From: Heliocybe sulcata
Lineage: Eukaryota; Basidiomycota; Agaricomycetes; Gloeophyllales; Gloeophyllaceae
Assembly: GCA_004369045.1 (NCBI GenBank)
Contig: ML213507.1
Location: forward strand, 859,993 to 923,992
Length of the DNA: 64,000 bases
Reading direction: 5' to 3'
Part shown: piece after piece, positions 5,644 to 64,000 of the stretch
Layout: every line of letters starts with the position of its first letter
Position numbering within the stretch: position 1 is the first letter of the stretch
Position numbers and translations under genes: made by a program
Notes under the pieces: generated by a model
Seen by the model: only the letters and a program-made list of their open reading frames with translations
Told to the model about the DNA's origin: nothing
Databases searched by the model: none

Positions 5644-8600
5644 ATGGATTCCACTGCGGTTTCATTCTCGGTCTTGGACATCGTTCTTCTTGTTCTCCTC
5701 ATCATCTCCCTCCTCGGTCTCATCGTCCTCGGCGTCGCCGTCTTGAAGTTTGTCATCAAGCCTTCGACCAAGAAGACTCAGCCTACTCTCCCCCCTCCCG
5801 TTACGCTTGCAGCTGTCCCCGCTGCCATCAAACCTGTCAATGAATCAACCCCCACCGCTGCACCCGCAGTACGCGGCGGGTTCGTCCCCGCCGACGTCGT
5901 CCCTCCCAGTGCCGATGTCATTCGGAATCAACTCGAGCTCATCAAATGTGACAACCACCAGTTCGTCGATAATTCCCTGCGGGACAGTGGTAAGCAATAC
6001 GTTACATCCTTCTGCCCTCATGCTCACGCCCGACGCTTCCAGTCGCGGAAAAAGCTATTCAAGGACTACACTCGAACCGTTCGACGGAGGTTACGTCTGT
6101 ACCTTGCGCATATAGTGACCGCGGCAATTCGAAAAATGTTCCCGATGGTCACTCGGAGAACACCAAGGCTTCCGCACTCCCTGTTGCCTCTGTTCTGTTT
6201 GCCTCCCTACCGCCAGCGGAAGGTGAACGTAATGGTATGACGGATGATCCCACGGAAAATTCGATGGTTCAGAACACGATAGAAGTTCGTGTCCCTGATT
6301 GTAGCGTCGACGTTGTCTAACTGCGGCGCATAGATTGAGTCCAAAGCCACGGCTACATCTCTATTGAAGGTTGATGTTGACAGCACAGATGGATCACCCG
6401 TCAGCAATTATCATTCGGAGAGCTCGACGGCATCTGAATTCCCTCATGCGGCCGTATTGTTCGCATCTCCATATCAGGTGGAAGACTACCATGTTAGTAA
6501 GGTTAACGGTCACTTGGGATGCATTGTTCAGAATTCGGCTGAGGTGCGTACGCTGCTCGTTACCGAGCCGGCCTTTGTCTAATATATGAATGCAGATGAG
6601 CAGCCTTAACTCCGAGGAACTCGTATACCTCAACTTCGTCGCACTCTTCGAAGAATCTTCCATTGCTACTGGAGACGCCGTAGTCGTCGAAGTACCCATT
6701 ATCCAGGAGGAAGTCTCCCTGGTTGAGCAAGTGACTATCCCCGTCGTCTCTCCTCCTGTGGCCCCGGCGCCTCCCGTCATTGATGATGAACTCGACATTG
6801 TCGAGTGTGTGCATCTACTGTTCCCTGTGCCGGTGAGCTTGTTCTGTTTTGGTATTGAACCCTATTCGCTCATGCACACACAGGACTATACTATATTCCC
6901 TGGCACCGCCCTGAACGTACTCGATGCATCGCCCGATGTTGGCGAACTCGATATGTTCAATTATCTGAACCTTCTGTTTCCTGATCAAACTATCGCGCAA
7001 ACTATCACTGAGCCCGTACAAGCTACTATTGAAGACACATATACCACGACTACTGCGAACGATTTCCCGGCCCAGCTCGACTCGTTCGAAGCTATGAACC
7101 TGCTGTTTTCCATCAATGTGAGTGTTTCGTACTGCTTGGTCTCCCTGTCCTGCTCAACCTCTCGTAATAGCACGCAGAGTCGGCGACCGCTATCGCTGAC
7201 GCTAAAGGGGCCGACGACGAGCTCGACTTGTTCGACGCTTTAAACATTATGTTTCCCATCTTGGCTACCGCCAACATCGAGGAGGATGAAGTTGAACTGG
7301 ACCTGTTTGATGTTTTGAACGATCTGTTCCGCGTTGTGGTGAGCTCTTTCTTATGCATCTCTGGTACTGCCTTCTGATCCGAGCCTAGGATGAACTCCCG
7401 GATCAGGGTATCACGCGGCCTCAGGTGCAAACGCTACCAATCATTGTCGATGTCGAAGAAGAGCTCGACGTGTTAGAGGACCTGAATGTTCTGTTCCCTG
7501 AAGTGGTGAGTACTCGTAAGGTAGCATCGATATTTCTTTCTTAACTACCCGCAGGGTGAGGGTATGGCGACGCCGCCGCTACAGCCTGCGACCGATGCGG
7601 AAGAGGATGTCTCCGACATTGACACCCTGGGAATGTCGCCTGAGAATCCGATCCTACTGAACGATCTTGACGATGAGCCCATCGCAGAGGAGGCCACGGA
7701 GATCAAGCCTGAGGTTAGGCAGGAAGAAGACCTGCAGGAGAGCGAGGATGCGCTTGAGCGGAAGCCATTCATGAGCAACATCAAGATTTCGACCACCGAC
7801 GGGCGTTCTGAGCTGACCGAGGCAAGTCAAACTTCAGAGTACTGTGTTACTGCAGGATAGCCACTGCTCGGTGCTGACCTAGCCATGCGAACAGACTCTC
7901 CTTTCTGGGCTGATGTTTGATTTCGGTCCCGAATCGTCGCCCTTCATCGGACGCGGAGAAGTAAGTGAACCGTGGCTGTCCTGCACTTATTGTCTCATCG
8001 TCTCTGTCACAGATCATCGCTGCTCCTGTGGCTTCTACACCTACGCGGGACCTACTGGGGTCGCCGCTGCAGCTGCAATCTCCGGCAACGTTCAATGCTT
8101 CCAGACGGCGGCACGATCCCTTCGGAACACCCGAATGCTCATCTCTGGCTGACGCTGGATGTCTATCTCGACTTCATCATCAGGACGACACCCTCGCCAC
8201 CCTTCGAGAGGAGTCGCCATCGATTGGGAAGTCATTCGCTGAGACGGCATATAACGAGTCGATTACCGTTGGCAATGGTATCCTTCCCGAGTCTCATGTC
8301 AACCCAAGATCGGTCGAGTATAGTTGGGACCTTTCCTCTTCACTATCCCGCTGTCGCCAGCGGACGAGTAGCGCCAATGGGTCGCCACGCTATGAGCCTT
8401 ATAGGTCTTCGATGCCTACTGCACGGGCTGCCGATGTGAGATATACGGGCCATTCAAGGCGGGACACTGGTGGTGGGGCGGTGGGTACACCGCCAACGCA
8501 GCAACAGCTGCATATGCATCCCATGGCACAAGGAACACCTTCCGACGTGGGGAGCAGATCCTCTGTAGCATCGGTAATTTCGGTTCACTCGGTTGCGCGA

Positions 8601-10313
8601 CCGGCACCGCCGACGCCGTCGAAAATGAGGGCCCTCGGCCGGACGCGCTGGGCACCCACGTTTACAAGGCGGGTTTCGGAGTTGAGGAGTCCGAGTCTGT
8701 CTTCCAGGTCGGGTGAGAGAAGGGACAGTGGAAGGTCGAGTGGTAGTGGAGTCAGTTCATCCTTCCTCACTGCCTAAACTACTGCTGATGGGCATTGCTT
8801 AGTTTCCACCTGTCCGGTCCCGTGCTTCTCTAACATCATACGAGGCTCGCACACCTCAATGGAACTTTAACGGATCTATTGGGGGCAGCGGAGGGATCCC
8901 TTCGAGTCCCTCCTATTCAAGGACAGGGCAGTCCAGCGCATTTGAAGAAATCTCACTGCGATCGACCTCACCGCCTCGGCCTGTGGTGCCCTCTCCGGCC
9001 TCGGATGTATCCCACGTGAGTTGTCCGTATCTGCAGCCTATGTATGGATCACCACGGTCTCCTGTGGCTTCCCTCCGACGACCGTCGGCGCCATCTCCAG
9101 GCTCGTCTTCATCTGGATTAAGTCAGAGATATCTTCCGGCGCTCTTGTCCTCCACCTCATCACAAGCGTTCGCCCGTGCGGTCTTCTCGAGTCCGAGTCG
9201 CTCTAGTCATGCGTGGTCACCTGCGACAGGGCGAGGGCGACCAACTGCCCCTTCTCCTGAGTCAGTCTCGTCTGAACCGAGTCGAAGGTATCTGCCAGCA
9301 CTTGTGTCTACCACTTCTCCTTCAACCGACACCGACATTGATGCAAGAAGCCCAAGCCAGTTCAGCTATGTCTCGACGCCTCGTACGGGAGAGATCCGCT
9401 GGCAGCCGAGTCCCGAGCTCCCACCACCGCAAGGGCCCTCATCGCCACAGGAGCCCCCTGCCCGCCCGTCGACTCCTGTTTCTGGTACGATGCCCTCTCC
9501 CGACTCCCGGCCTACATCGCTCAGGCTACGCCCTGAGTCTGCCTACTCCATTGATGACCAGTTATTTTTCCGGTACGATGCGGTGCGAAGACCGGATAAG
9601 GCTTGGCTAATTGACGCTTACCGGTTTGCGTTCCGCCTGGAGCGCGCCGCCCGGGGAGAACGAGTGTTGCCTGATTACGGGGATGATACTCTCTACAAAC
9701 TGGACGGTCGTTTAACCGGTCAATCGAGGAGGGTAAGAGCGGAAGTTAAGCGGCAGGAGTTTATGGACCTCGAGGATGGTCGCCGTGCGGTGCGCCGCGC
9801 CACCAGGACGATGGGAGCTTTCGGAATAATGGAAGGTGATGGTCGTCCTGAAGAGTGGGGAGAGGCTGCGGAGGAAGATGAGGTGGAGTCTGACTTGGAC
9901 GGTCTGTCCGTCGACAGCCAGGCATCTTCCTGTTCGAGCCAAGAGCCTGGCGGTTTCCCGGAAAGTATCCTTTGCTTCCTGAGGCCGAAGAATGCGGAAG
10001 AAGAACCGAATCTGGCTGTCGCTGAGGCGTTTAATGCCGGGTTGGAATGGGCTCTCAAGGCGTATGACCCGGAGTGGGATCCTCCTCAGCATCCCAACAA
10101 AGTGAGTCTTCTTTCTTGACCTCGTAAGATAATATTGACAATCGTCCGCTAGAATATCCAGGAGTATATGTATAAGTTCTGGCGGCGCAAGCTGAACGAG
10201 CTAGCTGAGAATCCTGTGGAGCATACGTTTGATCAAGTGCCGGTGAGTGTTGCATCTTTCCAGTCGTCCTTGCCGTCGATTAACTTAGCTGGTCTTAGGA
10301 TCTGCCAGCGTAG
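5644..10313 (+). CDS. Single-pass membrane protein with reiterated ELDxxxxLNxLFP motif, unknown function
   Basis: Thirteen exons give 1339 aa: 5644-5989, 6043-6284, 6334-6543, 6596-6832, 6884-7117, 7180-7338, 7389-7505, 7555-7821, 7895-7960, 8013-8750, 8803-10101, 10153-10242, 10299-10313. The ATG sits in a strong context (GCCATGG). Residues 12-34 form one hydrophobic helix with a short Asp-containing N-terminal tail and Lys on the far side. No cleavable signal is evident. The next ~450 residues are acidic and carry at least seven copies of a motif close to ELDLFDALNIMFP, mostly placed at exon ends. The remainder is Ser/Pro/Arg-rich and disordered-looking. Then comes an ordered ~150-residue C-terminal region (from about LFFRYDAVRRPDKAWLIDAY) ending in YMYKFWRRKLNELAENPVEH. 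Every intron after the first is phase 0. Intron 8 appears to be GC-AG. No family recognised. Confidence 0.75.
6614..7499 (+). repeat. Array of ELDxxxxLNxLFP-like coding repeats
   Basis: Seven copies in the membrane-protein gene: 6614-6655 (EELVYLNFVALFEE, divergent), 6788-6826 (ELDIVECVHLLFP), 6944-6982 (ELDMFNYLNLLFP), 7073-7111 (QLDSFEAMNLLFS), 7219-7257 (ELDLFDALNIMFP), 7294-7332 (ELDLFDVLNDLFR), 7461-7499 (ELDVLEDLNVLFP). Four of them end within 2 codons of a phase-0 splice donor, which suggests growth by exon duplication. Confidence 0.85.
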
Positions 10314-10605: not shown

Positions 10606-12266
10606 ATGTCCCTTTTCGTCCGGCGACCACCAACACCCTTTTCCCGCTCCAAGCGCCGCTACCACAGCACGCCCATTGCATGCGCCGGCGGAAGGCCCTC
10701 AAAAACGCTCACAGGCAGGTCAACACCAGGCAGGCGAAAATCTTTCGTGCAGACGGTCGAACCCAGTCTCGAGTTACCAGAGTTGGAATTATGGAGGGAG
10801 ACATTTCCGTACAGCGCTATGGGCCTGAAGGACAGGGTGTCGGTGAAGAACCCAGCGACTGCGGATAAGCTGGCGAAGAGCTTCGTCTACTGGAACTGGA
10901 ATAAGATGGATGAGAAGAAGGAGCCGTCGAATGTGAAGGAGTACGCTGAGGAATCAGAACAGCAGGAAGCTAATGCAGACCTGGAATCGGAACTAGAACC
11001 AGGTAACGGAAAGGGTAAAGTTATAATCGAGGCGTTCCCTGGTGAGTCGAAGTGGCTCGTGTCTCCATTCAACACGCTCATGCATATGCCTTCAGGCCCT
11101 GGGGCTCTCACGCGTGCACTGATGCGGCTGCCCGAAGAGCGCGTACGGAAGCTTATTGTGCTGGAGGACGACGAGCTGTACTATCCCTGGCTAAAAGTAT
11201 GTTCTCCTCGCGCTCTAAGACTCTTCTACTTATCTCCTCGTCTCAGCTCCTTGAAAAAGTCGACCCTCGCGTGCACGTCATCGACAAATCCGGCTACTCA
11301 TGGGAGACGTACGAAGTCATCGAAGAGCTTGGCCTGCTCGACGACGTCAAGAAGCAGCCCTGGGAGCAAGTGCACGACGACCTGCACTTCATCTCGCACA
11401 TACCCACGAACATCATGGGGGAGCAGCTCGTTTCCCAGTTTTTCCGGTGCATCCCCGACCAGCAGTGGCTGTACAAATTCGGACGCGTGCCCATGAGCAT
11501 TATCCTGGGCGCGCGGATGTGGAAGGTGTGTGGTCCCCTCGTATGGTACGCAATGATGTCCAACCCTAACCTCATCAGCGCATCTCCGCCGCCCCCGCCA
11601 CGCAAGACCGCTGCAAAGTGTCCGTCATTGCGGAGGCGACCTCCGCATTCGCCGCGTCGCTCCCGCCGTCCCGCCTCCTTCCCTACGAAGAACACTTTCA
11701 CCCGGCGTTTGTGAGGGAGAATCGCACCGGCAAGGAGAAACATCATGGTCCGCTCATCAGCATCAATACCCTGCCGCTCGCGCAACAGGTAAATTGTGTC
11801 TGCCTTAAGCATGGGCGTCAGCATAATTAAACCTATTTTCAGGTCATCGACACATATTCCTTGGAAAAATGGGACTTCTGCTTGAGACGTCTTTTTGTGC
11901 TAAAGCGCACCGCTATTGGCAAAGCAGTGGCGTAAGTCCCGCTTTGTCTTCTCGTCGCTGCCCTTTAGGATGCTTACTAAATTCAACGTAGCTCCCTAGC
12001 TCCCGGTGCGAACACCCTGATCAAGTACCTCTCTGATGAGAGCAGCTTACCCCCGAAAGAGCGGTTGGACCTCACTAAGGCCATCAACGAGATGACGGTC
12101 AGAGACTGGTCATTAGTCCTCAAAGCCTTCGAGAGATGGCCGTTCGCCCCGGAGGATCTATTGATCTCTGACGGGTTCAATGACGATAGGGACGATGGCA
12201 AAAGGTAAGTAGAATTTTACTTTTAAATCTTTGGTGTATGGTTCTGACTGCTCTGATAGGTTTTAG
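10606..12266 (+). CDS. Mitochondrial transcription factor B (rRNA adenine dimethylase family)
   Basis: Exons 10606-11041, 11096-11196, 11247-11525, 11579-11788, 11843-11931, 11992-12204, 12260-12266 give 444 aa. The N-terminus (MSLFVRRPPTPFSRSKRRYH) is basic and hydroxylated, a plausible mitochondrial presequence. The Rossmann core shows KVIIEAFPGPGALTRALMRL, equivalent to the family's E-x-x-PG-x-G-x-LT SAM-binding loop, with intron 1 inserted exactly in the Gly of this loop. LIVLEDDELYYPWLK follows as the second SAM contact. Fungal Mtf1/TFB1M-type proteins melt mitochondrial promoters with the phage-type RNA polymerase and/or dimethylate small-subunit rRNA. The sequence cannot tell which activity persists. 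Intron 1 is 54 nt and stop-free, so the unspliced message stays open. Confidence 0.85.
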
Positions 12267-23247: not shown

Positions 23248-26200
23248 TCAATTCATGTCTTCCCAGTTGGGCTGCGGCGGCCTGATCGACAGCTTGCCCA
23301 TCTCCTTTCTCTGACGTAAATTCTTGACTTCCGTGTTAATGAGATCTCGCAGGCGCTCGAGATCGACGCTGCGCTCTGCTCGAGAACCCATGAGCAGGTT
23401 CCGCCAGATGCCTGCTGCAGCGACGGAATTGTCGATGGCCAGCTGCAACGGCCTGTGAAGGCGAACCATCTTCTGCATGAGATGGTCTGGACTAGGATAT
23501 ATGGCATCTGGCCAAGCGATCCGGATGGCAAACCACCATCCCAGCGGCTAAGCAAGAGTCGATCAGTTCATCGAGGTCAGCGGCGATAGCATGGAACTTA
23601 CACGACCATCCGGTAAGCATCGTTCCGGAAAGGTATCGTATGTCGTCAGAGTCCCGTCAGGCAGCGAAAACCTGTGTATATGGTCAGAACATCTTCTCTT
23701 AGATGAAAACGTCTTCCCATACCTATGGACGACCCAATGGTTCTCATCCGAGCGATGCTTGGCGAGCACGATCAATAACCTAGGAATGCCCTCTAACCCA
23801 AAGGGCCCCCAAAGATCACGGAGCATGGCACAAGCATCGCCATGGCGGCCATTGTAGACGGCATTACTTATAGCGTCCGCCATATTTGGGGGCACAAAGA
23901 GACGATCCACGCGGCCCTGCGGGGAGTCCGTCATCTTGCTCCTCACATACCGCTTGTACGTCTGCGTCGACCAGATACTCAGGGCCACCTCATCAACCTG
24001 GTGCCCGCGAGTGGTGCTGTTCAGCGCCGCATCCAGCTCGGACATGGGCCACACGATGGCCCAGCTCAACAAGCGCTGGTGTACTCTCTGCCAGGGCGGC
24101 ATCGGCGCCTCGCCCCCATACGAGTTCTGCCACATATCCTGTCGACCATCGCGAGGAACAGGCGGCAAAGGCGGAGACGGTTTCCTCGTGTACGCTCCAG
24201 TATTCGTGTTTACATCGGTCATGTCGGGCAACCCCGACTCAGTAATCGCAGCATGGCCGTCTGGGTCCTCTTCATACTCCCCGCCATCCCTCGCGACTTC
24301 CCAGGTTTTATGGGAAACCGCGGACTGGCTCCCGGTTGGCTTTACCCGAAGTTTATACAGCTCTTCTTCGAGGTACTGCTGCCCGGGAGAATCGTCGCGG
24401 CCAACCATGAACTCGCTCGTCGGCTCTCGCGTCTCCGTGTCCTGCCCAGGGTAAGCATTGTGCAGCTCGTCGTCATACTCGTCTTCTTCCCTGATCCCAT
24501 GAGTAGAGCCATCGTGGTGGTGCATCGAACCCGGCATCGTGGGCCCTGCTGTCGATTGACCAATCATCTCGCTTTCTGGGATCTGGAACATCGAAGCCCC
24601 AGTACCAGTCGGTTGAGCCGTCTGGATGTTGACTGTCTGCGTTCTCGGCGTCTGGCCGTATTGGTCGAGTTCCGATTGCGTGTACTGGTGGTCCCGACGA
24701 TAGCTTCTACCGTCATCCACGTAGGAATCTCCTCTTGCAGACTTGAGACTGTCGATCTTCGGACCCAAGCCCTCCAGCCTCTGTTGCATAAGAATCATTC
24801 CCTGCATGAGTTCCTTGGCCCAATCAGGTGGCTCCGCCTGGAGGGAAGTCAGCCCTGACAATCAAACCTTCGCTAAATCCCACTTACCGTGGTGAGCGTA
24901 GGTACATAATCCGATTGCATATGAACTTCTGGGTCGTGATTGTGAAAGGACTTGCGGTACTGAGCAATAGACTGCCGCGAGGTAACTGAGCCAATCACCA
25001 CGCGAGAACCTCATTGAGCGCCCACCTCTGTATCATACTTCATTCCCAACTTCTTGATCCTCTGCCTCACCGCCCTCTGCACCGCCTTCTTCGTGATATC
25101 ATGTAGATTAGGATCCTCCAAGGAATGCAAAAGCACGCAGAGCTCCATGTCGTGGAAGTGAGAGTTATGTATGTCCGTTTGCATATTGGTCAACGCCATG
25201 GACGTCATGGACATCCTACGAGACAAAAGATCTCTGACTTTCTCAGCATCACCCTCGTCCATGTCCATAGGAGACTGAGGACGCGACTGTCTAGGTGTAA
25301 CACCGCCATCGTTCGCTGCGGAGCGATTAGCGCTTGCCCGCGATCCCGCCACCGATGGCTGCTTCTGATGCCCCGGAGACATGCCACCATTCATCATTGC
25401 CACATGGAACAGGTCCTCAGTCGTTGCTGCATGCCGATGTGGAGAGAATGCCCGATTCGGATTCAGCCCGGACATGCCTGACAGATGCGAGCGAACTACA
25501 TGAAAACGCGAAGCACTCAGTAAGTAAATAAACTCAGATAGAGATGAAAAAAGCCCGACCTCCGTTCATCTCGCGAGTCTGGCTGCGTGGCGACTGCTGT
25601 TCTCGAACAGGGCTCATAGCTCGCGGCGACATGCTCGCCTTCGCAGCACCATTTGTCTTGGGTTTGTAGTTGGAAGGTGAATCAGAGGGGGAAATAGAAG
25701 GCGCCTTGGATAGCGGCTTCGGCGACTTTGCGCCATCAACAGCGCTGCCATTCGCGTAGCCATTCCTGCCATTCTGCGAGCGGGGGGACAACGGGCGCCC
25801 GTTCTCGGTAGGTGCTCGGCTCCCCGCATTGGACGGTGCTTTGCCCGGCTATAATGAGACTCCGGTGAGCACGGTGTCGAAGACGGGAATAGACAGATGG
25901 GGACTGACATTCCCTGTGACTGTTGCATCGTCCCGCTCCGATCCTCGCGCCGAGCGGTCATTGGTACGTGTCTTGTGGGAAGAGCTGGAAGGCGGTTCAA
26001 TATGAATCACCACGCTCGGCGCACGCGGAGAAGCTACAGACCCTGGGAGAGGGACCTGCGCAGCTTGCGCGGGAGTACTCTGGAACCAAATGTTAATCAG
26101 TGTTATACATTGCAAGGCGTCGCGCATACTTGAAACCCATTGTATGGTCCACCGCCGATACCGCTATCGCGTAGGGGTCCAAAGTTCCCGAAAGACGGGC

Positions 26201-41072: not shown

Positions 41073-43094
41073 ATGGTCGTCCTCCGACGTCCAGCAACTG
41101 CCGCTCTCTTCACCGTATCTCTCTTTCTTACTACTCACGCCCAACCAGCCGCAACTCTCTATACCCCAGCCTTCGCACCCTGCCCTCCCACCTTCTCCTT
41201 GTACCGCCTCGCAGGTCCTGCATCGAACCAGACTCTAAACCCCGCTGAGCTCAGCTACGTCTCCTCCCGTAAGTCCACCGTCCTCCCGGGCGCCTGGGCG
41301 TCCTACCTCTCCAACGTTCAAGCCGAATCCTTGCCGCTGCCAGCATACGTGTCGTCCATCCTGAACGGGACGCACGGGATCGATGCGTACCCCACGTTAG
41401 GGGTGGCGGTGAGCGGCGGGGGGTGGCGCGCGGCGATATTTGGGGCTGGTGTGCTCAACGCACTGGACGGGCGAAACGCCTCGTCCGTGGGTGCGTGTAC
41501 AGGCGGACTTTTGCAGGGCGCTACGTACCTCACGGGTCTGTCCGGGGGCTCGTGGCTCGTCACCTCGTTGATGCAAGCGAATTTTCCTACCATCCAGGAT
41601 CTCGTTTATGGTCAGGGAGAGTTTGGGGGGTGGCTGCCTCAGTATAACCTCGCTGAGCCGACGGAGGACCTTGGTTATTATGAGGGATTGGTTGCGGATG
41701 TGCTGGGCAAGTATGAAGCGGGGTTTCCTGTTACTATGGGGGATATCTGGGCTCGGATATTGGGTAGGCATTTTTTGAATGGGACGACGGAGGCGAACTT
41801 TTATGAATATGATGTGCCGCATGGGGCTGGGATGACGCTGTCTGGTGTTGCTGAGACGTGAGTTTCTGGTTAGGATTTTCAGATGTGACTGGCGGACTGA
41901 GTAATGGCAGGTCTAAGTTTGCCTCGTTCAAAGAACCTTTCCCTATCGTAGTCGCCGACTCGAGGTCAGATGCCGGTAACAGGTCCAACATTGTCGCAGG
42001 TGCCAGTATCCCACTCACCAATCCAATTTACGAGTTCACCGTCTGTACGTCAAACAACTCTGCTGCTCATCCAGGCAGCTTGCTGATGGTGGTGTAGATG
42101 AGATGGGCTCGTACGACCCTATTTTATCGGCTTTCACTCCTGCTAGGTATCTTGGAACAAGGAATGATAGTATCTGCGTGACTGGTTTCGACCAGCTTGG
42201 ATTTGTGCAGGCTACATCTTCTAATATCTTTTCTAGCTATAACACGACAAACGTAAGCGCTTGTCTTCTACCTCTACACCAGCCTATCATACTCACCTTG
42301 CTGCTAGCTCACATCTATTCTCAACCTTCTGGACCCGAGCCTCGATCTTAATGAGCTGGAGCCTGGTATTGAGCTGGACGCTTCAGTCTATCCGAATCCA
42401 TTCTACGGTCTTGCGAGGGATACGTACATTGACTCGAATCAGACGTACCTAAGTCTGGTTGATGGTGGATTTGATAACGAGAGTATACCGTTCCAACCGC
42501 TTCTTGTGAAAGCGAGAGGGGTGGAGGTTATTCTGGCAGTGGACGGGGTGAGTAACGATCGCATCACGGGAATGTCGGATATCTAATTACGGGTGCGATG
42601 TAGACGGCCGATGTCAATGGCTTTGCTGCAGGAAGTTCTCTTATTGTGCGTTGATATTTTTTATCCTGACTACTGGACTCTAACCGTGCGTCCAGGTGTC
42701 GCAAAACCGTACCAAATTATTTCCATCGGCTTACTCCTTCCCTCCTGTCCCGAGCAGTGTCGAAGACTTCATCGCCGAGAACTTGACGACTCACCCCTCC
42801 TTTTTCGGCTGCAACTCTTCCGCGCCTACGCCACTTATCATCTACCTCCCCAACGGCGCTCCTCCACCAGGGCAACCTGCCATCACAAACACTTCTTCGG
42901 GCCAGTTAGAGTACAGCTTGACCGAGGTTCAAGCTATGCTAGACCAGACTCACGCCATAGCCACCATGGCAGGCGTCGACGACGACTGGCCAGCGTGTCT
43001 CGCTTGCGCGGTAGTCGACAGAGCTCGGGAGAGATTGGGCGCTGCCAGGGAGGGAATTTGCAGCACGTGCATGGAGAGGTACTGCTGGAGCTAG
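41073..43094 (+). CDS. Phospholipase B / lysophospholipase, secreted form
   Basis: Exons 41073-41857, 41911-42044, 42098-42252, 42308-42547, 42604-42645, 42696-43094 give 584 aa. The protein starts with a hydrophobic signal segment (ATAALFTVSLFLTTHAQPA). The cPLA2/PLB catalytic domain follows: SGGGWRAAIFGAGVLNALDG (oxyanion region), GLSGGSW with nucleophile Ser157, and SFKEPFPIVVADS. The Asp motif region ends in LSLVDGG (catalytic-dyad Asp). The C-terminal Cys-rich part (FFGCNSSAPTPLIIYLPNG, WPACLACAVVDRARERLG) ends abruptly at RYCWS, so there is no GPI signal. The enzyme hydrolyses acyl chains of phospholipids and lysophospholipids outside the cell. A paralogue lies at 60858-63069 with the same six-exon layout. 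Confidence 0.92.
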
Positions 43095-47720: not shown

Positions 47721-49217
47721 ATATATGTTCTCATTTTAACAATATGTGATATATCAAATAGATAATCATGTATCCAATTGCACGGATATTTCAACCGTGA
47801 CTTCCCGATATTGGGCCACATTTACAGGGCAGTCATATATTCGGTTACTGAAGTGCTGGTACGCAGCAGATGGGATTCGCATTCCGTTCCATCTCTGTTC
47901 ACTGGCGCGAGTCAAGTGACAGCTAGCCTCCATAGGTATGATGCCAAGCCGGTATGGGCGTACTTGTGGACAACAAGGGCGTCTTCTTGTTCTCTCACAA
48001 TTAGTTCACTCGGTGCGTTCTTCTCATCATAAGATCCGACCGCATGTTCTCATGAGATCGCAGGCACCGCAGTGCGCGTAAATATCTGGGCCGCGTATTG
48101 GCTGGATGCGGGAGTGGCGGTGAGATCGCGAGCGGGAAGAGAACCCGGAAAGTTGGCTCGACGGACGGAAGACCGAACTGATGTGGGCGCCGGTCATAAA
48201 TATTAATTACCAAATGTCCTCTAGGGGCCCTCATTAAGGTTGTTGGGATGGAGATGAAGCGGCGGCCAGTAGATGGGTTGGTGAAGATGGACCCGGTGAG
48301 AGTACAGTGGACGGACAGGTGTACGGCATGGCATGGGTGGGCCTAATAATACAGGACTAGTACCGTCTGGCACTCCACTGGAGCAAGGATGAATTTGATA
48401 GAGAGCAAGGTACTTCACGTCACCGAGCATTGAGAAGAGGACTGATCGTGCATGTAGATCCGGAACTTCTAGAAACTGAACAGGGGGGTGGCACAGACCT
48501 GCCTCTACTGACCGCTGGAAAGAGCAGGTCTGAGCCAGCAAGCCTGTCATCAGTCACCGGTTCACGCCACTACAACAATGCTGATGGAGACCCCGTACAT
48601 ATAGCGTCCGGTGTAGGGGGGCCATGACATTTCGAGGGCAAATAAAAAGTGGATTTGTGATGCGACATCCGGGGTTATGAACGAGTGCGATGAAACGGAG
48701 AGGCCGTGATCGAGGCGTCCGGACACAGCCGGCACCTTCCTCATTCGGTCCCGAGCTCGGTCTGATGGGGGACCCTGATCACCGTGTCCTTCTTGGCTTT
48801 CATCAGGTACATGGCATCATTACCTAACATACGAGCTGCCTTCATGGCGACTTTGTCTGCGGAATGCAGGGAAACGGCGACGGTGGCGAGACGTCTCTGA
48901 GAGAACAGCATTGAATGTGTCGGTCAGGCGATGAATAGACAGAAACGGGGGGAGTGCAAGTGCAAGTGTAATCGGAGTCGGGCCGTTGGCCCAGGAGAGA
49001 GACGCCGAAGACTTGACCCCAGCGTTGGAACAGATCTTCCGTGCCCTGCCGCTTTTTTTTCCGGTGTCGCGTCTGCTTCAAGGTCAATAAGAGCCGCTTA
49101 CGCTCTTACCAACGCCGAAACCGCTGCCGCCATCGCTGCCCCCGTCGACGACCGGTTACCAGCCCGACTTGGGCGCCTCCTATTACGTCCGTGAGTGTCC
49201 CCCCGTCGAGACTCGCC
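47721..49217. other. Gene-poor stretch right of the gap, upstream of the GATA gene
   Basis: About 1.5 kb. No supported gene. The last few hundred bases are likely promoter and 5' leader of the GATA factor; a TC-rich stretch containing an 8-T run lies at about 49041-49070. Confidence 0.5.
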
Positions 49218-52200
49218 ATGTCCTCAATTCCTGCGGGCATCCTGTCCTACGACGACAACAAGCTGCCCTGGTCCACCGCCGCCCGCCCAACCGTCAACAC
49301 CGCCGTGCCTTCACAACCCTCCTCATCTACGCCAGTCGAGGCTAGTCCTCAGTCGGCATCAATCTCGGCTACCAGCTCCCCATGGTCACAGTCTGCACCG
49401 CTCTCCTCATCCAGTTCACAGCCCAATTTCATGTACCGCACGACATCTCCCACTCAGTCTAATGCCACCAACATGTCCTCCCTCAGCAACCCTGAATGGA
49501 GCAGCCTCTTTTCACAACCACTTAACCCCAGCGTCTTTGCCGCCCTAGCGGCGAATGGCGTTCTTGGTCCTCCTCAATCACCAGGCGGCGACCCCTCCTC
49601 TGCGCCATCCGCCGCCCATCGCTCTGGCCAATTCCCCCCTTCTTTCACTCGCTCGCAGAATGCCGGCATCCTCGGCATGGGCCCGCCCGACCTTCATGTA
49701 AATACTGCATCCTGGCCCTCTACTTCCCCCGTCAACCCCAACTTTCCCCACCGCGCCTCCTCTGGCAACTCGAGCTCAGGCAGGAGCAGCGCCGCGAATT
49801 CCAAGGGCAAATCGCCTGTCGGATTCACTCCCATCCAGCCCAGAGACCACCAATCACAACCCGGTCCCTACGCGCGCTCTAGACATCCCTCAGGTACGCA
49901 TGAAGCTATTTTCTACTGTAGCAGCACGGCGTCAAGAGATCGACCATTGACGTCCATCTCTTTGCCAGGTGATGATGGCCCATACCCACTCGGCCTATCC
50001 GCACAACAGTTTGCCAACTATCAGGTCGCATCGGAACGGTCCACTGCTGGGCTTCCCCCATCACTATGGATGTCACCTACCTCGTCCGCCGGCTCAGTGA
50101 CGCCCGGGATCCCCGGATACAACCCCATCAATCAAATGTCGATACCAACCTCCATACCCGAATCCGGGCCCTCTTCTTTCGTCGGAAGCGCCGCCTCGAG
50201 TCTCTCCACGTACGGCAATTCACAGCTTTCGAGCCCGCAGACTGCGAGCTCGAAACCGTCGCCGATATTCACTGACCTGTTTTCGGCGTCGATGTCGAGC
50301 AAGGACACGAGTGCGTTTCCGTCGCCGAAGATGCCGGGCTCGCCGGATTTGAAGGCGGCGCAGCTGGCGGCGGAGGAGGTGGATCCGGAGGAGATGGCGA
50401 AGAAGGATCCGCTGGCGACGCAGGTGTGGAAGATGTATGCGAAGCAGAAGGCGACGATGCCGCATGCGCAGAGGATGGAGAATTTGACTTGGAGGATGAT
50501 GGCGCTGGCTTTGAAGAAGAAGAAGGAGGACGAGGCGAGGGCGGCTCTCGGAGGCGTCGCGACGCTAGGTGAAAGCGCCGAGGATGTCGAGTCTGCAGAA
50601 GGAGAGGGGATGCATGAGGAAGAGCGGGGGCGGAGGCCGGAGAAAGGCAAGGCGAAGGTGACTGTTGTTGGTTTTGATGGGACGAACCAGGATGGCGCGG
50701 AAGACCCCACCGAGTGCGTGATATTCCTCATATATTGCGCGATAGACAGGAGGTGTTGATGTCACGGTGTAGCGAGGTGCCCATGGACTGGCGCGCGATG
50801 AGCAGGTCGCGCTCGCGTGTGCCGATGGATTGGACGCCGACGAACCGCTCGCGCTCGCGGCGGCGGCCCGCGTTCGACGTCAGTCTGCCGGAATATGGTG
50901 GTTCGGGCGGGACGTCGGCGGAGGGGAGCCAGTACAGGTTCCCGACGACGGGGGAGAGCCCGCCGGCGGGCCCTGGGACGTCGCCGAATATCCCGATTCC
51001 TGGGAGGAGGAGCCCGCCGCATGCGAGTCTGCCAAGCCAGCTGAATTACCCGGGGCCGTTCTTCCCGAATGCGAATGCGCCGCCTGGGGCGCCGCCGTAC
51101 CCGGACCATAATGCGCCAAGGTTCCCGCATGCGGGGCATCATCAGAGTTTGTCGGCGTTTACGAGCCCGACGGTGCAGCCGGCGAGTTTGCCGGCGTTTG
51201 GGCTGCATGGGCTGGGGCGGCTGCCGGCGACGGGGACGGATGGGCGGGGGTTCCCGAGGAGGGTGAGGAAGACGAGTTTTGATCATACTGTGGCGAAGGA
51301 GGGGATATATGGGGTTGCTGGGCGGCATCAGTTGAATGGGAGGACGCAGGTTGTGGATAGTTTGGTTGGGATGAAGAGGAGGGCGGATGCGCCGCATGTG
51401 GAGAGTATTCTGCGCGCGGATCCGTCGAATATCGATGGGTCGCTGAGGCCGGATACGATATTGGAGCATGAGCGGCTGGATCGCACGAGTCCGTTCCCGA
51501 GCTCGGCGTTCAACTTTACGTTTCCTTATGATGGGTATCTGGATGGGCAGGGACAGCATATCGCGCATCATGATTTCTCGGCTGTGCTTCCGCACTCTGA
51601 GGGCGGGAGGGCGGCGGATGGGGCGTTCCAGCACCGTAGTGCGCGGTCGCCGGTCAGCGGGGCGCCGTACTCTCCGACTGGGGAGTCGCCGCTTATCGAT
51701 AATGGAGGAGGGCTGTCGGCTGCTGCTGTTGCTGCGTCTGCGGCGATGGCGGAGGGGTACCAGCTTAGTGCTGCGAATCTGGCTGCTGTGGAGGATTCGG
51801 GGATGGATTATCAGCAGATTATGAGTCTGATGTATCCGAACTTGGATAATCCTGCTGCTGGGCTGCCGTCGCATCCGTATACGCATGTGGACCCGACGCA
51901 GATCTTGCCTGTGGATGTGGAGGGCGGGGTGTTCCAGTCGTTCCATCCGAGTCCGTCTAGTGATGGGTGGGGGAATGGGGTGAATTCGAGCTCGAATGCG
52001 TCGCCGGAGCCGTACAATACGTCTAGTGCGTCGTCGCCTCGGGGGCTGGAGCCGGCGAGTGCGAATAATGCGAGGCTGCCGGGGCGGAAGGTGTCCGCGA
52101 AGCGTGTTGGCGGGGACGCGTCGAATACGGCGGCGGCGGCGCGGGCTGTTGCAGCTGCGCAGCGGAAGAAGTCGATGCCGAATCTTGGGGGGGCGAATAG

Positions 52201-52825
52201 GTCGAGCAGTAGTACGCCGGAGAGGGGCGGGGAGAATGGGGCGGGTGCGGGGCAGAGTGGGAAGGAGGGGGATGGTGACCAGAGCCCGACTGTTTGTACG
52301 AATTGTCAGACGACCAATACCCCTCTGTGGAGGAGAGACCCGGATGGGCAGCCCCTGTGTATGTTTTGGCTTATCTTTATCCTTTGGCGTGTTCTAACCT
52401 TTTGTGTGTAGGCAATGCGTGCGGTTTGTTTTATGTATGTCATGAGTGTATTGAGTGTGTGGTGTCGCCTGACTGTGATTGTGTAGAAACTCCATGGTGT
52501 TGTTCGTCCCCTTTCTTTGAAGACGGATGTTATCAAGAAGAGGTGAGTTTGAATGGTGTTGGAGGCGATGGTGTTGCTGACTTGGTGTAGGAATCGGGCG
52601 CCTGGGACGCCCAGCGGTACGACGCGCAAAGGCCAGACGCTGCCCAAGGTTGCGTCGAACTCGACACGTCCCCGGTCCTCGACGACTGGCCACCAGCCTA
52701 TTGGTCTTGCGAGCCGGGCTGGTGCCCCGAATTCAGCGGGCACGCTTGCAATGAAACGACAGCGACGGACTTCCACGAGCCTGACGACTGCTACTGGCAA
52801 GTCGGAGGAGGGCATCGGGGCATGA
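49218..52825 (+). CDS. AreA-like GATA-type transcription factor (nitrogen regulator family)
   Basis: Exons 49218-49893, 49969-50713, 50773-52358, 52412-52434, 52487-52542, 52591-52825 give 1106 aa. A disordered Ser/Pro/Asn-rich N-terminus precedes a block starting [16 protein letters not shown] (from residue 372) and [18 protein letters not shown], characteristic of the DUF1752 region found in fungal AreA/Nit2/GAF-type regulators. A repeated VPMDW(R/T) with SRSRSR follows. The single type IVa finger is C982-x2-C985-x17-C1003-x2-C1006 ([20 protein letters not shown], then [19 protein letters not shown] and TDVIKKRNR). The finger is cut by three introns, one through the third Cys codon. This family activates nitrogen-catabolite genes; the specific role here is inferred. 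Intron 1 (75 nt) has no stop, so retention would stay in frame. Confidence 0.9.
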
Positions 52826-60857: not shown

Positions 60858-63069
60858 TTACATCAATAGTGCTAACCAGATACCCAGCGCAGCAGATGGC
60901 AGTAGAGCAAACGATGACAATGTCGCAGAGCGCGCTGCATTAGTATTTGAACTCGTACCTGCGCCCCATGTGCTATTCGACCCGCCATAGCAATACGTCG
61001 CAAAACAGGTATCGCAAATCCCGCTTCGTTGCGCATTAATCCGCGCCCTCGCTCTATCCACAACAGCGCAGGCCAGACAGGCGGGCCACTGACTGTCGAT
61101 GCCCTCAAGGGTGGCCATCGTAAACGTCTGGTCGAACATCGCCTGTACCTCTGCATCAGAGTACTTGAGTTGAGTAGTGGACGTGTTTGTAACGGGCGTC
61201 TGGCCATGTGGCGTGTAGCCGTTTGGCATGTAGATGAGGAGAGGTGTGGGTGCGGTGGAATTGCATCCGAAGAAGGTGGGATGGGAGGTAAGGTCTTGTG
61301 CATTGAAAGCGGACATGTCGGTCGGGACTGGGGGAAATGAGTATGCTTGCGGGTAGATGTTCATGGTGCGGTTCTGCGTGGCCTGAGAGTCCTCCGTCAG
61401 ATGCGAAGCTTACAGGGAGACATTACTCTGGGACGTACTATCAATGCACTGCCATCAGCGTAGTTATTCGTGTCAGCCGTCTACGAGGGATAGATATTAG
61501 TATCTACCGACTGAACGTTCCGTGCAAACGTTTACCGCATCGATGGCAAAAATCACATCCACGCCTCTGGTCTTCACCAATAGCGGCTGGAGCGGTATTG
61601 TCTCCCCGTCTTCACCGCCATCGACGAGGCCCAAATACGCCTGATTCGAATCTAGATACGTGCCGCTTCCGACGCCGTAAAATGGGTTAGGGTACGTCGC
61701 AACGTCAAGCTCCATGCCTGGCTCTGGAATCGTCTGGTTCAGGAGTTGAAAGAAGGGACCCATTGAGGAGTTCATTAGGATCTCGGTCTGAGGGGAAGGA
61801 GGTTTGTCAGTACGAGATGGTTGGACCCTCGTAATGCAGGGGAAAGGCATCATACCGTCACGTTCGCCTCATTGAAAAGCTCCGAGGACGATGCCTCGAT
61901 GAAAGAAGCTTGATCAAAGCCGGTCACGCAGACCGAGGTGTTAGTTGTTCCCAGATACTGCATCGGCGTGAAGGTAGCCAGCACTGGATCATAGGAACCA
62001 AATTCATCTACGTCGTGGTTCAGCGGTGTTCAGCCGCGGATATGAGTGTGGCACACGCACAGACATTAAATTCATAAAGAGGATTCGTAAGGGGAACCAG
62101 GTCGCCTTCGTCAGATATCCTATTGGAGTTGTTCTGAGAGGTTGACACGGTGTCGGCTACCACGACCGGAAACGGTTCGCCATATGTTTTGAACGTCGAC
62201 CTGGGATACCGGATCGGCATCAAGGCAAGTCTGTCTAAGAAAATTCCGGCTTACGTGTTCGCAATCTGGGAGAATAGTAACCCAGCCCCATGGGTCCCTG
62301 TGATGTCGTCGATATTATCCGAGTTCGTGCCATTCACGAAATGCCTCGCTAACGCTCTCGCCCACACATCCGCAATTGTGACCGGAAACCCGGCATCATG
62401 TTTGCTCTTGACCTCGGTTACTACCGCGGTGTCATACACCCCGTCCTCCACCGGATCGTCGCTCGGCTCGAGCAAGTCATAGCTGGCCAGCCACCCGCCC
62501 CACCCGTTTGAGTCCGAACTGAAGTTATAACCAAATGCGAGCTCCTGGATCATTGGAAAGTCCGCTTGAACGAGTGAAGTGAGCAGCCACGAGCCCCCAG
62601 ATAAACCAGAGATATATGTCGCGGATTGCAATAGGCCGCCGGTTCCCGCCTGCGCAGAGGTTTGATTGCGTCCATCGAGCGCATTGAGAACGCCAGCACC
62701 GAATATCGCGGCTCGATACCCTCCTCCGCTGGTAGCGATCCCTAGTGTCGGGTACGCGGAGGCCCCGTTCTCTCCGTTCAGAATCGAGGCGACATAGGAC
62801 GGAAGAGAGTTCTCTGTCGCCTGGACGTTCGCGAGGTAGGCTTTCCACGCGCCTGGTAGGATATTTGATTTGCGCGAGGAGATGTACGCAGACTCTCCAG
62901 GGCTGAGCGTTTGATTCGAGGTGCCGACTGATCGGTGTAGACTGAAGCCATCTGGGCAAGCACCTACGGACGGGGTGTAGGCTCTTGCGGCTGCTGTCTG
63001 TCCTACGACTGCTGCAGGCAGGCCGAGAGCGGACAGAATGCCAAGTCCAAGGAGTGCTCGAGGTGCCAT
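60858..63069 (-). CDS. Phospholipase B / lysophospholipase, GPI-anchored form
   Basis: Exons 63069-62255, 62200-62061, 62007-61862, 61787-61536, 61480-61439, 61382-60858 give 639 aa with the same six-exon layout as the 41073-43094 paralogue, including an identical 42-nt fifth exon. The signal peptide is MAPRALLGLGILSALGLPAA. Catalytic motifs: TSGGGYRAAIFGAGVLNALD, GLSGGSWLL (Ser157, same residue number as the paralogue), LGLVDGGEDGE. The C-terminus continues past the Cys-rich region with a Ser/Thr/Asn linker (GGSNSTWGAGTSSNTNAARS) and a hydrophobic tail (LLPSAALGIWLALLM), a typical GPI attachment signal. This copy should stay on the plasma membrane or wall, while the other is predicted to be secreted. 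The gene converges with the upstream mannanase. Confidence 0.93.
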
Positions 63070-64000
63070 CGCAGGTCACAGTGCCAAGCTGAGACAGGCT
63101 ACAGACGAGGAGCAGTGCCGCCGACCGCCGGAGAGCAACCAGTTTTAATGCTTCGGCGTGCGGCTGACACAAAACGTCCGCTGAGGGTACTGACGTCAAT
63201 CTATTTGTGATGCAGACCCGCGAGGGAACTTCCACTCGCAATCCTTACCGGGACCGAGGGTAAGCGCAGCAGTGTCGGTTAATCACACGCTGTACCATCA
63301 TATCTTGAGACCTAACTTCGCCAATTAGCAGGTTCCAGGATCGCTCATCAAGAATAATGATAGAAGTCGACGGCCTCCTGATCGCGTCCCACGAGCAGTG
63401 CAAGAGCACGTTGGCAAGACCGTACCGTGTAATCGTTGATGACGCTTTCTGTGAGTTATAGATGTGCCGGTATTCCCGAGTTCCTGAGACGAGCGTCAGG
63501 GAGATGCCTGGAACTGTCAAAGTACTCCAATCGCTGTCGTCTTGCCCAACATACAAGCCGGGAGTGCACCACGAGCTGACGGCGTCTCTGGGTAACGGGC
63601 CTGAGATAATGAATCCAAATGGAAGCATGGAATTTGTGAAGCCGCTGGAAGCCCTGATACTCGTTCCTAGTAACTCGGACGAGGAATCAGAACTTCTTCT
63701 ACTTCCTGTGCCTTGCCCGGTGGCCGCAGAGGACGCAGAGGACGGTGCCGGACGGATGATTCGTGGACCAGGCAGCTCGGACGTCGAGCTGTGCGGCCCA
63801 GGATTACACTTTGTTACGAGTCCCGAGTTTACGAAGGAAGAGTCTTTACCGGGTCGATGCCGAACAATGCAGATCCTCCCACGATAATGCCGAGAAACTG
63901 TGGGAATTAAAAGTGTAGTCTCGATAACACTTTATTGAAACTCCGGTTGTAGTCGAGACTACAGTTTTTGATTTGTAGTGCCACATTTCAGTAATCTGCA
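63070..64000. other. Right end of window, no confident gene
   Basis: About 930 bp. A minus-strand frame (about 63245-63845) has Ser-rich, secreted-protein-like composition but no supported start, stop or family. A short hairpin (TGTAGTC-ga-GACTACA, 63950-63965) sits near the window end. Confidence 0.4.

Follow-up and report, generated by a model that had tools for sequence, protein, structure and literature searches.

A stretch of 64,000 nucleotides from the fungus Heliocybe sulcata (assembly GCA_004369045.1, contig ML213507.1, positions 859,993 to 923,992 of the forward strand; hereafter the window) contains at 5644-10313 on the forward strand a gene whose predicted product carries a short motif several times over. 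The locus raises the question of what a protein of this kind does with such an array and how the array came about. The original prediction, made from the letters of the sequence, took the motif for a multivalent docking site for one partner that had been expanded by duplication of symmetric exons. We give about an even chance to the product being a membrane-anchored multivalent docking scaffold. This reading is backed by six motif copies beyond chance, by three residues invariant among them (L2, D3 and F12), by a run of 182 residues free of lysine and arginine, and by a single hydrophobic segment.

The motif array and the exons that carry it

The gene is plausible as the 13-exon model that had been proposed for it, in which 4029 joined nucleotides (nt) stay open to the stop codon and encode 1342 amino acids (aa). 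Its parts, with the basis of each assignment, are as follows.

5644..5989, +, exon 1: start codon, then the hydrophobic segment of the N-terminus (about residues 8-38); model and hydropathy, with a coding score that does not favour the modelled frame
6043..6284, +, exon 2: first member of the exon 2-3 duplication (DxxxxxxVxxxHSExxxASxxPxAxVLFAS); alignment of exon 2 with exon 3
6334..6543, +, exon 3: second of the duplicated exon pair; alignment of exon 2 with exon 3
6596..6832, +, exon 4: sound copy ELDIVECVHLLFP (331-343), preceded by the doubtful one (residues 273-285); model and motif scoring
6884..7117, +, exon 5: copies ELDMFNYLNLLFP (366-378) and QLDSFEAMNLLFS (409-421); model and motif scoring
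7171..7338, +, exon 6: copies ELDLFDALNIMFP (440-452) and ELDLFDVLNDLFR (465-477); model and motif scoring
7389..7505, +, exon 7: copy ELDVLEDLNVLFP (504-516); model and motif scoring
7555..7821, +, exon 8: acidic linker; best in-frame coding score among the 13 exons
7822..7894, +, intron 8: GC-AG type, 73 nt, the weakest join between the gene halves; model, coding and splice scoring
7895..7960, +, exon 9: 66 nt; model, with a higher coding score on a reverse frame
8013..8750, +, exon 10: Ser/Thr/Pro-rich, basic, disordered-looking; model and composition
8803..10101, +, exon 11: Ser/Pro-rich, a 48-residue stretch occurring twice (968-1015 and 1021-1068), with the C-terminal region beginning near residue 1121; model and repeat alignment
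10153..10242, +, exon 12: part of the C-terminal region; model and coding score
10299..10313, +, exon 13: final four codons plus the stop codon, the exon of which the model is least sure; model and coding score

Six sound copies of the motif [EQ]LDxxxxx[NH]x[LM]F start at residues 331, 366, 409, 440, 465 and 504. They score 14.3 to 27.7 bits each, values that no shuffle of residues 191-530 attains (n=500); each copy was scored with a profile built from the other six of the seven copies named in the original prediction, the doubtful copy included. That seventh copy, at 273-285, scores -13.2 bits, a value equalled or beaten by all 500 shuffles, and its alignment needs a one-residue gap, which leaves six of the seven copies standing. 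L2, D3 and F12 occur in all six sound copies, E1, N9 and L11 in five, and F5, L8 and P13 in four. The hydrophobic residues of the motif are spaced close to every third position. A pattern derived from this gene, [EQ]LD followed by seven residues and [LM]F, fits 6/6 copies and is found in 0/1000 shuffles, the pattern having been drawn from the copies themselves.

Exons 4, 5, 6 and 7 each end exactly two residues past a motif copy, and when four exon ends were placed at random in residues 285-518, none of 200,000 trials had them share one offset of 0 to 5 residues. The copies had been described as mostly ending right at phase-0 exon borders; this holds for four of the six, each two residues short of its border, but the remaining two lie within exons 5 and 6, where an intron may have been lost or a copy may have doubled within the exon. 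Eleven of the 12 introns, which are 49 to 73 nt long, are phase 0, the exception being the first junction. The portion of PMC5677156 available to us gives phase 0 for 40% of introns (215/534) in one Fusarium species, and at that background the chance of at least 11 phase-0 introns among 12 is 0.0003, a value that treats as independent introns that are not so if copied with their exons. A basidiomycete gene family described in the available portion of PMC3584928 lacks a phase-0 bias.

Two further duplications, neither of them mentioned in the original prediction, are found in the same gene. One involves exons 2 and 3 as a pair (local score 59, reached by 0/400 shuffles), with 30 aligned residues ending in VLFAS. 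Exon 11 holds a tandem repeat (RPxAPSP, RYLPAL) at residues 968-1015 and 1021-1068, with 48 aligned residues and a score of 101 against a shuffle maximum of 56 (n=500), both stretches having been picked after the repeat was spotted. Internal duplication in the gene is thus of three separate kinds, affecting the motif exons, exons 2 and 3, and the exon 11 stretch. Among the 36 pairs formed by exons 1-9, six pass a z score of 2.5 (2-3, 4-6, 4-7, 5-6, 5-7 and 6-7, the score of pair 5-7 being reached by 1/400 shuffles) and pair 4-5 falls below it. The local alignments of motif exon pairs 4-5, 5-7 and 6-7 span 13-15 residues, which is the motif alone. Because the exons are phase 0, four exon ends share the two-residue offset and a second exon pair is duplicated, amplification of the motif exon by exon appears well supported, as the suggested expansion of symmetric exons had it.

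When the interiors of the 12 introns were compared in all 66 pairs, the highest z score was 2.6 and pair 2-3 did not rank among the top ten, which indicates that exon duplication left no clear trace in the introns. The donors of the introns that follow the four motif exons all read GTGAGY, compared with 2/8 of the other introns (Fisher p 0.06). As a separate observation, the donors GTTCGT and GTGCGT are unique in the gene to introns 2 and 3, directly after the duplicated exons 2 and 3.

The codons of the six copies agree at frequencies of 0.62, 0.86 and 0.53 at codon positions 1, 2 and 3, and 55 of the 102 codon pairs that encode the same residue are identical (0.54, versus 0.40 expected for independent codons). 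Codons have drifted while residues were kept, so the residues look held by selection and not by recent copying. The six copies appear old: they retain a measure of common history, and their constant residues seem to be under selection, a view that draws on one gene.

We consider it unlikely that exon duplication, in an acidic disordered protein under loose constraint, left the repeats as an inherited by-product that binds nothing particular and contributes bulk charge at most. The several separate duplications within one gene suggest a region prone to duplication and fit this explanation, as do the excess of identical codons and the finding that no tested motif fits all six copies and also beats shuffles (see below). 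It accounts poorly, however, for the invariance of L2, D3 and F12 despite codon drift and for alignments of motif exon pairs 4-5, 5-7 and 6-7 that end at the motif.

Regions of the protein and the join between the gene halves

The single N-terminal membrane helix that had been read from the sequence agrees with the hydropathy profile. Residues 8-38 are the sole strongly hydrophobic segment (best 19-residue window 3.35), windows above 1.6 are confined to residues 1-42, and the best window starting beyond residue 50 reaches 1.33. Membrane segments are oriented on the basis of the positive-inside rule, and the net charge of -1 before the segment and +3 directly after it would by this rule place the bulk of the protein in the cytosol. 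The acidic region that had been described is confirmed by a net charge of -49 over residues 267-518 and of -71 over 267-640. Lysine and arginine are absent from residues 253-434, 182 in a row, and 0/5000 shuffles of the protein reach such a run. The long disordered segment is likewise seen at residues 641-1090, which are basic, disordered-looking and 40% Ser, Thr and Pro, with 24 [ST]P pairs versus 15.2 in shuffles (4/1000 reach the count). From about residue 1121 the C-terminal region differs in appearance, and the order that had been ascribed to it is putative.

Coding scores for the exons were trained on the codon usage of 10 other open stretches in the window, two of which overlap and not all of which are proven genes. 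The modelled frame beats the two other forward frames in 11/13 exons, the exceptions being exons 1 and 13, and when the best reverse frame is included it wins in 9/13, with exons 1, 4, 9 and 13 losing. A branch-like CTNAY site is missing from four of the 12 introns (5, 7, 11 and 12). Intron 4 (6833-6883), which is 51 nt long, is in frame and contains no stop codon, so it may be retained in some transcripts.

The gene model may mistakenly join two genes at the GC-AG intron 8, the join between its two halves, and we regard such an error as improbable. It would fit the GC donor of intron 8, the stop that the frame meets at 7860 when this intron is left unspliced, the ATG at 7913 in frame with exon 9, and the higher coding score of exon 9 on a reverse frame. 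Two genes would be separated by only about 50 bases, however, which is a very short gap. In addition, a branch-like CTNAY lies 18 bases before the end of intron 8, and of the three forward frames it is the modelled one that scores highest in exons 8, 9 and 10.

Candidate functions of the array

The idea of a docking site is reasonable because motif positions are kept while the exon-pair alignments (4-5, 5-7 and 6-7) stop at the motif. Small hydrophobic sites within flexible acidic sequence are, besides, the form taken by LD motifs and alpha-alpha-hub ligands (see below), which counts in its favour. In the proposed mechanism, the gene, found once in its genome, would encode a membrane-anchored scaffold. 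Its N-terminal segment would anchor it and leave most of the protein in the cytosol, as the flanking charges of -1 and +3 suggest. After this segment come the strongly acidic part that bears the six motifs, the basic Ser/Thr/Pro-rich part and, with no domain match, the C-terminal region. The motifs probably multiplied together with their phase-0 exons, as the exon borders indicate. Each motif may act as a short linear site that binds in one groove of a partner through its Leu, Phe and Asp, and the presence of several such sites could provide avidity and so gather the partner at a membrane.

Known docking motifs were compared with the array by testing patterns, in which h denotes a bulky hydrophobic residue, on the six sound copies and on shuffles. 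Among these patterns are FFAT (an aromatic second position in an EFFDAxE-like core), the Atg8 core [WFY]xx[LIV], the nuclear export signal, the clathrin box, LxxLL and FxxLF. The LD, FFAT, PAM2, PAM2L, PAH2, clathrin box, LxxLL and FxxLF patterns each occur in 0/6 sound copies, and the doubtful copy at 273-285 carries FxxLF. The TAF4-TAFH and RST patterns each fit one copy of six. The nuclear export signal hxxhxxhxh fits five of six, and its count in the region is reached by 253/1000 shuffles; hxxhh fits all six, and its count is reached by 700/1000. The ETO-TAFH pattern [DE]hxhh fits five copies and occurs at 10 places in residues 267-518, three of them outside the copies, versus a shuffle mean of 3.2 (0/1000 reach the count), an excess that is partly built in because any pattern within a repeated motif repeats along with it. 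No tested docking motif both fits 6/6 copies and exceeds shuffles.

The Atg8 core bears on whether the protein is a selective-autophagy receptor with several Atg8-interacting motifs, which we consider very unlikely. The core is present, with acidic neighbours, in three sound copies and in the doubtful copy. It is absent from the other three sound copies, however, its count in the region is reached by 144/1000 shuffles, and the residues that are most constant (L2, D3, N9, L11 and F12) lie outside it.

Known systems offer partial likenesses. LD motifs (LDXLLXXL) are short, contain hydrophobic and acidic residues, and dock as helices on folded domains, according to the available portion of PMC7703752. 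Paxillin-type LD arrays as described there resemble the array of this gene in comprising a series of short motifs that have acidic neighbours and a Leu-Asp close to where they begin. In contrast to LD motifs, LDXLLXXL occurs in 0/6 copies, strict or relaxed, the hydrophobic positions are 0, 3, 6, 9 and 10 instead of 0, 3, 4 and 7, and this protein matches neither LIM nor any other Pfam domain. The fungal endosomal adaptor Upa1 has short PAM2 and PAM2L motifs with a key Phe, those of the PAM2L kind being acidic (PMC9249222, in the portion available), and the array resembles it as far as that account goes in placing short Phe-bearing motifs in a predicted fungal membrane protein. It differs in that the PAM2 core given there (LNxxAxEFxP) and FxxP are each found in 0/6 copies.

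The ligands of alpha-alpha-hubs, from which the hub patterns were taken, are short and hydrophobic, carry acidic residues, and bind folded helical domains (PMC7948954, available in part). The array may resemble these ligands, as they appear in that portion, and acidic activation domains in that hxxhh fits 6/6 and [DE]hxhh 5/6 copies. It is unlike them in belonging to a predicted membrane protein in which no known DNA-binding domain is seen, and in fitting PAH2 in 0/6 copies and TAF4-TAFH and RST in 1/6.

The likeness to activation domains leads to another explanation, that of a membrane-tethered transcription activator in which proteolysis frees the acidic motif array to act as an activation domain. 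A rule for such domains in the available portion of PMC10550315 calls for 39-residue tiles that have a charge of at most -9 and sufficient W, F, Y and L. In this protein 21 tiles over residues 430-488 fit the rule, and 53 tiles, in seven runs from residue 272 to 543, fit a less strict form of it; the presence of hxxhh in all six copies would also fit an activator. The strict count is equalled in 207/500 shuffles of residues 267-640, however, cleavage would have to occur close to the N-terminal anchor, and the absence of any Pfam match means that no known DNA-binding domain is seen. We judge this explanation to have little probability.

Several observations weigh against the docking scaffold. 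The generic hxxhh pattern is no commoner than in shuffles, given that 700/1000 reach its count. The helical moments of the copies (0.14-0.42 in the six sound copies and 0.07 in the doubtful one) are not above those of the surrounding sequence (mean 0.25 for all 12-mers of residues 267-600), and at this background level the label 'amphipathic', which had been given to the motif, is unsupported. The identical-codon share of 0.54 versus 0.40 points to some leftover common history, and the conservation argument is carried by only six copies in one gene.

A bolder proposal is that ELDxFxxLNxLFP represents an undescribed class of short binding motif with one dedicated receptor domain in mushroom-forming fungi, the number of sites on a membrane scaffold being tuned by phase-0 exon duplication; we hold this to be doubtful. 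Should relatives have kept the motif, a comparison of copy number and exon borders between species would reveal exon-by-exon growth of a multivalent binding strip in a fungal gene, and the motif could serve as bait for its partner. If they have not, the gene would encode an ordinary fast-evolving disordered protein.

Searches for relatives and the neighbouring genes

The protein had been put forward as belonging to a novel family. No significant match was found in the libraries searched, Pfam, NCBIfam, PHROGs and PDB, but novelty itself is unproven, and many fungal genes with no Pfam match do have orthologues in relatives. A Pfam-A search with the whole 1342 aa gave 0 families at E up to 10, under HMMER filters that discard most weak matches, and a Pfam search with four of the six motif units found no family, the other two units being shorter than 20 residues. 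NCBIfam (C-terminus and array) and PHROGs (C-terminus) gave no significant match. In PDB, the C-terminus had two matches (best E 1.4), neither significant, the array had none, and the motif profile had five, none significant, the best being CNOT7 at E 0.39.

The matched segment of the CNOT7/Caf1 nuclease, EEELDFFEILRLFFPV, resembles the motif over 16 residues and was dropped as a candidate, E 0.39 being chance level; it belongs to a nuclease subunit, unlike the motif array of this gene. The CAF1 family has one partial match above the cut-off in the H. sulcata genome, covering profile positions 25-126 only, and the EEELDFFEILRLFFPV-like segment lies outside it.

The H. sulcata genome (31,634,890 bases in 51 contigs) was searched with the array, motif pieces, the C-terminus and the N-terminus, and no second copy was found by this search, which scores only the best candidates; a weak N-terminal match elsewhere has E 0.18. 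Scans of viral contigs (two) and of prokaryote genomes (one), collections in which kin of a fungal gene were hardly to be expected, returned no relatives. Literature searches on the motif letters or on lineage-specific Agaricomycete membrane proteins gave no match, and those on septal pore cap proteins, symmetric exons in fungi and tandem linear motifs gave no comparable case among the titles listed (8 of 97 for tandem linear motifs).

The short introns of the gene, and neighbours such as an AreA-type GATA factor (see below), are consistent with a filamentous fungus. The next gene downstream (11247-11714) matches rRNA adenine dimethylase barely above the cut-off. A 432-codon open frame at 23563-24861 on the reverse strand has no Pfam match at E up to 0.01 and is accompanied by a 353-codon open frame on the opposite strand. 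Parts of PLA2_B lysophospholipase genes lie about 20 kb apart on opposite strands, at 41073-41861 (+) and 62251-63075 (-). Two open stretches at 49017-52411 match GATA_AreA and a GATA zinc finger and are probably one gene, encoding the nitrogen regulator AreA.

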